Of a stretch of DNA of 64,000 nucleotides, positions 3,153 to 5,477 are shown piece by piece. The DNA comes from Meiothermus ruber DSM 1279 (GTDB lineage Bacteria; Deinococcota; Deinococci; Deinococcales; Thermaceae): positions 2,542,001 to 2,606,000 of the forward strand of contig NC_013946.1 in NCBI RefSeq assembly GCF_000024425.1, in the 5' to 3' direction. The notes beneath the pieces were generated by a model, which did no database searches, was not told the DNA's origin, and saw only the letters and a list, made by a program, of their open reading frames with translations. Positions within the stretch are counted from its first letter, which is position 1. Each line of letters starts with the position of its first letter. The position numbers and the translations under genes were made by a program.

Positions 3153-3716
3153 TTATCGGCGTTTTTTGACCAGCCACTTCTCCTCGGCGAAGCCTTCGCG
3201 TTTATTGACCACTCGAGCCAGCGTAAAAAGCAGGTCCGAGAGCCGGTTGAGGTAGCGCAGGGCCTCCGGGTTCACCTCCTCGGTGCGCATCAGCGCCACC
3301 ACCCGGCGCTCGGCCCGGCGGGCAATGGTACGGGCGAGGTGCAGGGCCGCCGCCGCAGGATGGCCGCCGGGATGGATGAAGCCGGTGAAGCGGGGGGCTT
3401 CTTCCTGGTAGCGGTCAATCAGGGCCTCGAGCTTCTCCACGTCTGAGGCGTCCATGCGGGCCAGGTTGCGCTCGTAAGGGCCGCCGGCGCGGGTGGCGAG
3501 GTCGGCCCCTAGGTCGAAGAGGGCGTTCTGGAGGTACTCGAGGTCGGCTTCAATGTCGGCGTGGGCCGCCCCCAGGGCCGCGCGAGCCAGCCCGATGGCG
3601 CTGTTGGCCTCGTCCACCGTGCCATAGGCCTCCACCCGGGGGTGGTCCTTGCCCACCCGCTCGGCCCCGTACAGGCCGGTCTCCCCCGCGTCACCGGTTT
3701 TGGTGTAGATTTTCAT
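3153..3716 (-). CDS. cob(I)alamin adenosyltransferase, PduO type
   Basis: The 187-residue protein begins MKIYTKTGDAGETGLYGAERV, the ATP-binding signature of PduO-type ATP:cob(I)alamin adenosyltransferases. RTIARRAERRVVAL and LNRLSDLLFTLARVVNKREG are the other conserved helices. It transfers adenosyl from ATP to cob(I)alamin to form coenzyme B12 in the cytoplasm. An upstream in-frame ATG at 3773 is open, but family alignment and the K-I-Y-T-K-T-G beginning place the start at 3716. It is first in a three-gene operon with the BtuF-like protein and the small unknown protein. Confidence 0.93.
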   Translation of the reverse strand: MKIYTKTGDAGETGLYGAERVGKDHPRVEAYGTVDEANSAIGLARAALGAAHADIEADLEYLQNALFDLGADLATRAGGPYERNLARMDASDVEKLEALIDRYQEEAPRFTGFIHPGGHPAAAALHLARTIARRAERRVVALMRTEEVNPEALRYLNRLSDLLFTLARVVNKREGFAEEKWLVKKRR

Positions 3717-3785
3717 GCTTTCATTTAACTCTACCCAAGGCGGCTCGAGTGGGTCACGCCCAACATACCTCACTATGCCTGGCAG

Positions 3786-3791
3786 TACTAT
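3786..3791 (+). promoter_or_regulatory. -10 box of a probable leaderless promoter for the MNT gene
   Basis: TACTAT stands 6 nt before the ATG at 3798; there is no clear -35 box. Confidence 0.45.
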
Positions 3792-3797
3792 GGTCTC

Positions 3798-4088
3798 ATG
3801 CGCAGGGGAAGTGTGCTGGCCATCCTGGAGGAACCGCTGCCTGGCCTAGCCCAACAGTACGGCATCAAAAGCCTGTACCTGTTCGGCTCCACCGCTCGCG
3901 ACGAGGCCAGTCCCGACAGCGACGTGGACTTTTTGGTGAGATTGGCGCAGCCCACCTTTGAGCGCTACATCGGCCTCAAGCACGCCCTGGAAGACCTGCT
4001 GGGCTGCAAGGTGGATCTGGTCAGCGCCAAGAAAGTACCGGCCGAGCTGCGCGCCCACCTCGAGGCCGATGCACTTCGGTTGATTTGA
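3798..4088 (+). CDS. mntA: MNT-type nucleotidyltransferase (MntA-like antitoxin)
   Basis: The 96-residue protein is a minimal nucleotidyltransferase. LYLFGSTARDEASPDSDVDFLV contains the GSx10DxD motif complete (GS, then D-V-D), so the metal-binding aspartates are intact. In HEPN/MNT systems this protein neutralises the HEPN RNase toxin by AMPylating it. The next gene, 10 bp downstream, is a HEPN-domain protein, so the pair has the usual antitoxin-toxin order. The partner has lost its expected motif (see there), so the antitoxin's target chemistry may no longer apply. Confidence 0.88.
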   Translation: MRRGSVLAILEEPLPGLAQQYGIKSLYLFGSTARDEASPDSDVDFLVRLAQPTFERYIGLKHALEDLLGCKVDLVSAKKVPAELRAHLEADALRLI

Positions 4089-4098
4089 AAAGGGGCCC

Positions 4099-4464
4099 AT
4101 GCGCCACCCCACCCCCCCCAACCCCCACCTACAAAAGCGGGTCTACCTCGAGCAGATGCAGGAGGCCGCCCGGCGAGTCCTGCGCTATACCGCTGGGATG
4201 AAGTTGGCCGATTTTGCCGCCGATCTGCGCACCCAGGACGCCGTGCGCCACAACCTCCACCGCCTGGGCACGATGGCTGCTGCCATGCACCCCAGCCTGC
4301 GCGAGGAACTGCCCGAGCTGGACTGGAGAAGCATCCTGGACTTACCCGACCTGGTCAGCCACCTCCACTTTGGCATTCAGGACGAGATTCTCTGGGATCT
4401 AATCCGGCGCACCCTGCCCTACTGGCTGGTGGTGCTGGAGGAGGCCCTGGAGCAGTCGGTGTGA
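4099..4464 (+). CDS. hepT: HEPN/DUF86 (HepT-like) protein with degenerate RNase motif
   Basis: The 121-residue helical protein aligns with DUF86 HepT toxins: an N-terminal helix (YLEQMQEAARRVLRYTAG), the VRHNLHRLGTMAAAM helix, and ILDLPDLVSHLHFGIQ where the family has the RNxxxHxY ribonuclease motif. Here R becomes P83, N becomes D84, the His is kept (H88), and the Tyr is H90. The catalytic Arg and the motif Tyr are therefore absent, and RNase activity is doubtful. It follows the MNT gene by 10 bp. It may be a retired toxin or a HEPN domain kept for binding only. Confidence 0.78.
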   Translation: MRHPTPPNPHLQKRVYLEQMQEAARRVLRYTAGMKLADFAADLRTQDAVRHNLHRLGTMAAAMHPSLREELPELDWRSILDLPDLVSHLHFGIQDEILWDLIRRTLPYWLVVLEEALEQSV

Positions 4465-4469
4465 CATCT

Positions 4470-4475
4470 TAGACT
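4470..4475 (+). promoter_or_regulatory. -10 box of a probable leaderless promoter for the LysM-M23 gene
   Basis: TAGACT stands 6 nt before the ATG at 4482 and no Shine-Dalgarno sequence is present. Confidence 0.5.
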
Positions 4476-4481
4476 GAGACC

Positions 4482-5477
4482 ATGCACATTCGTCTGCTCG
4501 TACTCCCAGCCCTGGCCTCTTTTGCCCTGGCCCAGACCACCCACACCGTCCAGCCCGGCGAGACCCTCTACCGCATCGCCCAGCAGTACAACACCAGCGT
4601 GGAAGCCCTGCAGGTGCTGAATAACATCGCAGACCCCACCCAGCTTCGGGTGGGGCAGGTGCTGCGGGTGACGGGGCAGCCCAGCCCAGCCCTTCGCCGC
4701 CTCACCCAGGCCCCGGCCCCCATCGAGGCCATCGAGTGGCCCGGCGAGACCATCCAGGGCCACCTGGCGGTGATCCGCATCACGGCCCCGGCACCGGTAC
4801 AGGGCGAGGTGCGCTTCCTGAACAACACCTACCCCATCCAGCAAAACCGCGTGCTGCTGCCCATACCGGCCCTGCAAGCCCCTGGGGTCTACCCCGCCCG
4901 GCTGCGGGTGGGGGGGGCGGAGGTGGGGCTCGAGGTGCGGGTGGTGGCCGGAAGCTTTGGGCGCTTTGTGCTGCAACTGCCCCCCGACCGCCAGGCCCTG
5001 CTGGTGCCCGAGCGGCTGCGGGCCGAACGGCTCAAGGTGGTGGGCTCCTGCGACTTCGACCGGCCCCAGCAGTGGCGGGGCCCCTTCCAGAAGCCCGTCC
5101 AGACCAACCGCATCACCGACCCCTTCGGCACCCGCCGCAGCTACGACGGCGGGCGCAGCTACTCCTACCACGAGGGGCTCGACTACGGCGTGCCCGAAGG
5201 CACCCCGGTCTATGCCCCGGCCCCGGGTGTGGTGGGCCTGGCCGAGCGGCTCTTTGTGCGGGGGAACGCCGTCACCCTCAACCACGGGCTGGGGGTGTGC
5301 AGCGGCTACTGGCACCTCTCGCGCATTGCTGTAAAACCGGGCCAGACTGTGCAGGCCGGCGACCTGCTCGGCTACTCGGGCAACACCGGCCTGTCCAACG
5401 GGCCTCACCTGCACTTCGAGATCCGGGTGCGGGGCATCCCCACCAACCCCGCCCCCTGGTTCCTGAGCGTTCCCTGA
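4482..5477 (+). CDS. LysM and M23 family peptidoglycan endopeptidase
   Basis: The 331-residue exported protein has a signal peptide to about residue 17 (ALASFALAQ), one LysM domain (HTVQPGETLYRIAQQYNTS to LRVGQVLRV, about 20-65), a linker and beta-domain, and a C-terminal M23 peptidase domain (about 210-325). The zinc motifs are visible: HEGLDYGVP (HxxxD) and HLHFEI (HxH). M23 enzymes cut peptidoglycan cross-bridges outside the cytoplasmic membrane, and LysM anchors the enzyme to glycan. It is convergent with the 5-FTHF cyclo-ligase gene, 9 bp away. Confidence 0.93.
   Translation: MHIRLLVLPALASFALAQTTHTVQPGETLYRIAQQYNTSVEALQVLNNIADPTQLRVGQVLRVTGQPSPALRRLTQAPAPIEAIEWPGETIQGHLAVIRITAPAPVQGEVRFLNNTYPIQQNRVLLPIPALQAPGVYPARLRVGGAEVGLEVRVVAGSFGRFVLQLPPDRQALLVPERLRAERLKVVGSCDFDRPQQWRGPFQKPVQTNRITDPFGTRRSYDGGRSYSYHEGLDYGVPEGTPVYAPAPGVVGLAERLFVRGNAVTLNHGLGVCSGYWHLSRIAVKPGQTVQAGDLLGYSGNTGLSNGPHLHFEIRVRGIPTNPAPWFLSVP

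Follow-up and report, generated by a model that had tools for sequence, protein, structure and literature searches.

The window analysed here is a stretch of 64,000 nucleotides from the genome of Meiothermus ruber DSM 1279 (3,097,457 bases, single contig; NC_013946.1, positions 2,542,001 to 2,606,000). It contains a gene for a minimal nucleotidyltransferase (MNT) directly upstream of a gene for a HepT-like protein (HEPN), the order found in the type VII HepT/MntA toxin-antitoxin (TA) systems (Table 1). This order is kept across 11 species, with a spacing of 10 bp between the two genes in the window and of 6-10 bp across the species. The location of the pair between the cobalamin adenosyltransferase and LysM/M23 peptidase genes is also retained among the orthologue genomes; a divergent copy in G011 lies at an unrelated locus.

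Table 1. Features of the MNT/HEPN locus in the M. ruber window and of related loci in other genomes.
Feature	Position	Strand	Remark
Cobalamin adenosyltransferase	3153-3716	-	Upstream neighbour of the pair
TACTAT, -10 box (TANNNT)	3786-3791	+	Ends 6 bases before the MNT start codon
MNT	3798-4088	+	96-aa minimal nucleotidyltransferase; its sequence keeps the catalytic residues
First 12 residues of MNT	3798-3833	+	MRRGSVLAILEE
GSx10DxD motif of MNT	3885-3929	+	Residues 30-44 (GS-x10-DVD)
HEPN	4099-4464	+	121-aa HepT-like protein lacking the RNase/AMPylation motif
Former RX4HXY loop of HEPN	4342-4374	+	Residues 82-92 (LPDLVSHLHFG); by alignment P83 is the Arg site, H88 the catalytic His site and H90 the AMPylated Tyr site
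LysM/M23 peptidase	4482-5477	+	Downstream neighbour of the pair
Window counterpart of the VapBC-like gap	3716-4482		Holds HEPN/MNT only
VapBC-like pair, relative	L122 2340-3205		HTH_26 + PIN
VapBC-like pair, relative	L123 2514-3370		HTH_26 + PIN
VapBC-like pair, relative	L111 1802-2667		HTH_26 + PIN
464-aa protein, relative	L039 3386-4780		Between HEPN and LysM
464-aa protein, relative	L124 3813-5207		Between HEPN and LysM
464-aa protein, relative	L123 4241-5635		Between HEPN and LysM
464-aa protein, G018	L125 3907-5305		Frameshifted
Orphan antitoxin-like gene, G016	L130 694-1134	-	MNT of the motif-bearing-HepT type

The hexamer TACTAT is identical at positions -12 to -7 before the ATG of MNT in all 11 orthologues, although several of them have unrelated sequence farther upstream. 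It is predicted to be the leaderless promoter of the pair, as the -10 motif of leaderless genes in Deinococcus-Thermus, which is experimentally supported, lies about 6-7 bp from the open reading frame (PMC12340547). All 11 species share the same first 12 residues of MNT, a degree of N-terminal conservation that seems unusual in this type of protein.

The gap between the two neighbouring genes varies in content among the relatives. A divergently oriented VapBC-like pair (HTH_26 + PIN) stands beside HEPN/MNT in G017 and G005, while the close relative G021 carries the VapBC-like pair only and lacks HEPN/MNT, which is thus dispensable in one species. Judged from its gene content, the interval looks like a site at which TA-type modules are exchanged. 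Pairs of this kind were located in the gap of three relatives, with or without HEPN/MNT. Several relatives also encode a 464-aa protein between HEPN and LysM, which is absent from the M. ruber window and, by reading of its sequence, resembles a serine hydrolase of the beta-lactamase class. In PADLOC, MNT matches the candidate family PDC-S09, which is weak evidence of a defence role, and HEPN has no match.

Protein families and predicted folds

MNT belongs to PF01909 (1.3e-14), and its score against the NCBIfam model MntA_antitoxin (NF047752), 58.9 bits, falls just under the cut-off of 60. The residues G30, S31, D42 and D44 of the GSx10DxD motif, which an earlier note on this DNA had described as kept, are invariant together with a third aspartate (D73) in 11/11 orthologues, so that MNT shares this feature of type VII systems. 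The MNT model (pLDDT 91) finds its best structural matches in 1wot (Z 12.8), the Legionella MNT (Z 11.6) and HI0073 (1no5, Z 10.8), and is devoid of the additional C-terminal helix through which some MNTs dock to HEPN. The protein terminates where this helix starts in the MNTs of S. oneidensis and A. flos-aquae, and in this shorter form it resembles the MNTs of Legionella and T. thermophilus (1wot).

HEPN matches the HepT-like family PF01934 (4.7e-13) over profile positions 1-115 of 120 with 49.3 bits, above the cut-off of 23.5 bits. PF01934 is the sole family reported for it at E up to 1; PF05168, the family of class II HEPN/MNT pairs, gave no match in the search at E up to 1, and the NCBIfam model HepT_toxin (NF047751) scores 17.5 bits against a cut-off of 60. 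An AlphaFold model built from six orthologues (pLDDT 88) has as its best eight structural matches (VIA) the HEPN toxins of S. oneidensis and A. flos-aquae, with Z 10.1-11.6 and an rmsd of 2.6-3.2 over 106-114 residues; the rank of these matches counts more than their Z, as helical bundles reach middling Z by chance. A PDB sequence search with HEPN alone gave no match, while a search with a profile found the HepT of S. oneidensis. By homology, as judged from the profile match, the predicted fold and the alignment with motif-bearing HepTs, HEPN is a member of the HepT-like family, and the earlier note had correctly aligned it on the RX4HXY family motif.

The former RX4HXY motif of HEPN

The segment ILDLPDLVSHLHFG of HEPN aligns exactly on I-x-G-[LM]-R-D/N-x3-H-x-Y-F-G of motif-bearing HepTs from the same bacterial family, standing where these have ...GLRDIVVHEYFG. 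Within it, L82, P83, D84, V86, L89, H90, F91 and G92 are invariant in 11 species, while position 87 is S, G or T. At position 88, the 11 orthologues, M. ruber counted, have R seven times, H three times and N once. The divergent G011 copy keeps LHFG, with an Arg before it. Thus RX4HXY is absent (PDLVSHLH in M. ruber) and the acceptor tyrosine of the Y-loop is replaced by His90 in 12/12 members of the clade. As these two defining features of type VII systems are wanting, the pair can not be classified by function as a type VII TA system.

The claims of the earlier note on single residues fared unequally. The replacement of Arg by Pro is confirmed by P83, which is invariant in the 11 close orthologues, and that of Tyr by His is present in 12/12. 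The change of Asn to Asp is no loss, as RD is frequent in place of RN among the motif-bearing HepTs from Meiothermus and Thermus. The statement that only the His remains holds for M. ruber itself, which has H88, but this residue is incidental rather than a conserved catalytic one, as the site is usually Arg in the orthologues. The question whether the substitution is fixed is answered by the orthologue alignment, in which the motif is gone from the 11 close Meiothermus orthologues and from the divergent twelfth copy. The loss also withstands a search for an intact motif elsewhere in HEPN, as helix 2 holds the single RX4-6H match of the protein, R44-H51, whose H51 is Tyr in 7/11.

A changed motif is no proof of a dead enzyme, because non-canonical RNase activity of HEPN proteins is documented: the Legionella HEPN cuts RNA via a separate Mg site (Q44/E47), and R98A/H103A has little effect (PMC11586414). 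The pair may accordingly still be a TA pair, in which HEPN would do harm via a different active site or through non-cleaving RNA binding, and MNT would counteract it, either through binding or through modification of a different residue. This is consistent with the retained MNT-then-HEPN operon order, the toxicity of the Legionella HEPN via its Mg site rather than RX4H (PMC11586414), the proposal of non-catalytic RNA-binding HEPNs (PMC3710099) and the resemblance of the locus to a TA exchange spot, with VapBC-like HTH + PIN genes in G017, G005 and G021. However, the equivalents of Q44 and E47, as we read them across two families from the sequence alignment and helix 2, are position 51 (H4/Y7) and position 54 (H8/Q2/N1), neither of which is conserved; the sole other RX4-6H is not conserved either, and no alternative conserved acid/His pair was identified in HEPN. 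We consider this explanation rather unlikely.

His90 itself may be the target of MNT, which would then AMPylate HEPN on this residue (N-linked AMP), or on some other one, as a switch that has nothing to do with RNase activity. H90 coincides with the acceptor position and does not vary even in the divergent copy, the loop is strongly constrained and the MNT motif is intact. Nevertheless, among pol-beta-type protein AMPylators we know of none that uses His as acceptor, the conservation of H90 may reflect packing, and the loop holds no invariant Ser, Thr or Tyr, position 87 being S, G or T. Such a switch is therefore regarded as improbable.

Selection and distribution of the pair

The dN/dS ratio (omega), estimated by the Nei-Gojobori method over 55 pairs from 11 species, is about 0.29 for HEPN and 0.147 for MNT, the synonymous distances being rough in these GC-rich genes. 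Within HEPN, the most constrained parts are WRSILD (0.09), which precedes the former motif loop, the last helix (0.14) and the loop itself (residues 82-92, 0.16), while helices 1-3 reach 0.34. The loop is constrained though apparently non-catalytic and therefore may still serve a purpose, for instance MNT docking. In comparison with a motif-bearing Meiothermus HepT (omega 0.085), the constraint on the motif-less HEPN is partly relaxed but still clear.

None of the 12 motif-less copies carries a stop or frameshift, whereas 8/35 motif-bearing HepT loci of the same 18 genomes have an internal stop or are truncated; this contrast (8/35 vs 0/12, Fisher p 0.09) is suggestive only. In-frame stops among the motif-bearing Meiothermus HepT genes were seen in G007:C134, G007:C152, G011:C16 and G012:C21. 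The earlier note had left the choice between a decaying module and a new role. Simple decay would agree with the higher omega of HEPN and with the loss of the pair in G021, but it is rejected as very improbable, because all 12 copies are intact, both omega values (0.29/0.15) are far below 1, the former motif loop is constrained and the -10 box is invariant, and the broken motif-bearing loci stand in contrast to it. The other half of that choice, a changed role, is favoured, although the function itself is predicted from sequence. The sequences themselves show that loss of the motif has become fixed in 12 species and that purifying selection keeps the pair conserved.

Close orthologues of HEPN are present in 11 Meiothermus genomes, M. 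ruber included, the other 10 showing 69-87% identity to the M. ruber protein; the divergent copy of a twelfth Meiothermus genome, G011, shows 47-49%. A branch with 99/97 support sets the 12 motif-less copies apart as a single clade. When 111 Deinococcota genomes were scanned for the pattern of the motif-less loop, 11 were positive, all from one genus, and the best profile matches outside the genus are far weaker, those that were aligned carrying the motif. No relative was found among the IMG/VR viral contigs by the search made, plasmid matches are DUF86 relatives with less than 60% identity (best about 30-33%), and nothing useful was found in the literature on Meiothermus TA modules.

The M. 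ruber genome encodes three other PF01934 proteins with MNTs nearby, and HEPN proteins are known to dimerise (PMC11586414). The motif-less pair may thus be a decoy or antidote, titrating or cross-modifying the motif-bearing HepT toxins of the same genome. This role is weakened by G016 (99% complete, 2 contigs) and G019, in which the motif-less HEPN is the only PF01934 protein, so that the pair persists on its own, and the identity of the motif-less HEPN to other HepTs is only about 30%; we hold it to be quite unlikely. G016 also contains an orphan antitoxin-like gene, an MNT of the type accompanying motif-bearing HepTs but without an adjacent HepT.

Candidate role and related systems

The simplest account of the locus is a domesticated HEPN/MNT module, in which a non-catalytic HEPN would partner an intact MNT with a target other than the usual tyrosine, as catalysis and acceptor are apparently gone and MNT is under the stronger constraint. 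We assign this reading a probability of about one half. Both the fold of HEPN and its position in the operon appear to be kept, while the Arg-His RNase dyad and the tyrosine normally AMPylated by MNT are lost, and HEPN most likely is no RNase toxin now. It may instead be a non-catalytic, possibly dimeric partner of MNT, acting as a substrate-presenting or regulatory subunit, and the intact nucleotidyltransferase would modify something other than the usual HEPN tyrosine. We infer from the sequences that MNT is active, that it binds HEPN and that HEPN has lost its toxicity and RNase activity. Domestication is opposed by the faster evolution of the motif-less HEPN relative to a motif-bearing Meiothermus HepT, by the dispensability of the pair (absent from G021) and by the lack of a docking helix in the MNT model, although the Legionella MNT also has none and still works. 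More specifically, and only as a tentative suggestion, the separate-gene TA pair may have turned into a two-subunit nucleotidyltransferase, in which the former toxin would present a new substrate or its own His90 and the former antitoxin would be the effector rather than an antidote.

Domestication of such modules has been proposed before. HEPN domains fused to MNT usually have no RNase residues and have been proposed to be domesticated TA modules (PMC3710099), as in kanamycin nucleotidyltransferase and the C-terminal domains of GlnD/GlnE, where a non-catalytic HEPN accompanies an active nucleotidyltransferase; the predicted activities of the Meiothermus proteins would fit this arrangement, but their parts are separate genes in an unaltered TA-like order. 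In the HEPN-M/DUF86 group, 83% of the members retain RX4-6H, and the remaining 17% or so were described as motif-less in 2013 (PMC3710099); the locus is accordingly of moderate surprise. Motif-less HEPNs and the domestication idea being already published, what is new is a genus-wide, constrained and unfused HEPN/MNT pair which also lacks the acceptor tyrosine. It provides a natural case in which the catalysis and the modification site of the toxin are both apparently gone and the pair is still selected, which allows asking what an MNT 'antitoxin' does without an active toxin to silence, and bears on the route by which TA modules become housekeeping or defence enzymes.

Among the characterised systems, type VII HepT/MntA (class I; SO_3166/SO_3165 of S. 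oneidensis, and A. flos-aquae) is similar in having a PF01934 HEPN downstream of a PF01909 MNT with GSx10DxD, and its structures match the HEPN model best and the MNT model well; the Meiothermus HEPN differs in lacking the RX4H dyad and the acceptor tyrosine, with Pro and His fixed in the 11 close orthologues. The HEPN-MNT pair of Legionella pneumophila (lpg2920/lpg2921) resembles it in an MNT without the extra C-terminal helix and in a HEPN whose activity is independent of RX4H (PMC11586414), but that HEPN still has RX4HXY, with poly-AMPylation on Y105, and cuts via Q44/E47, residues of which none is conserved in the motif-less HEPN. Class II HEPN/MNT pairs likewise are without RX4H and keep the GSx10DxD of MNT (PMC7641770), but their HEPN belongs to PF05168 and has a tyrosine that could be adenylylated, whereas the Meiothermus HEPN is a PF01934 protein with His. 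The 'two-protein nucleotidyltransferase' HI0073/HI0074 of Haemophilus influenzae also consists of a separate MNT, the 1no5 match of the MNT model, and a helical partner; in HI0074, however, which aligns with PF08780-type HEPNs, RN-x3-H-x-Y is still present (RNITSHTY).
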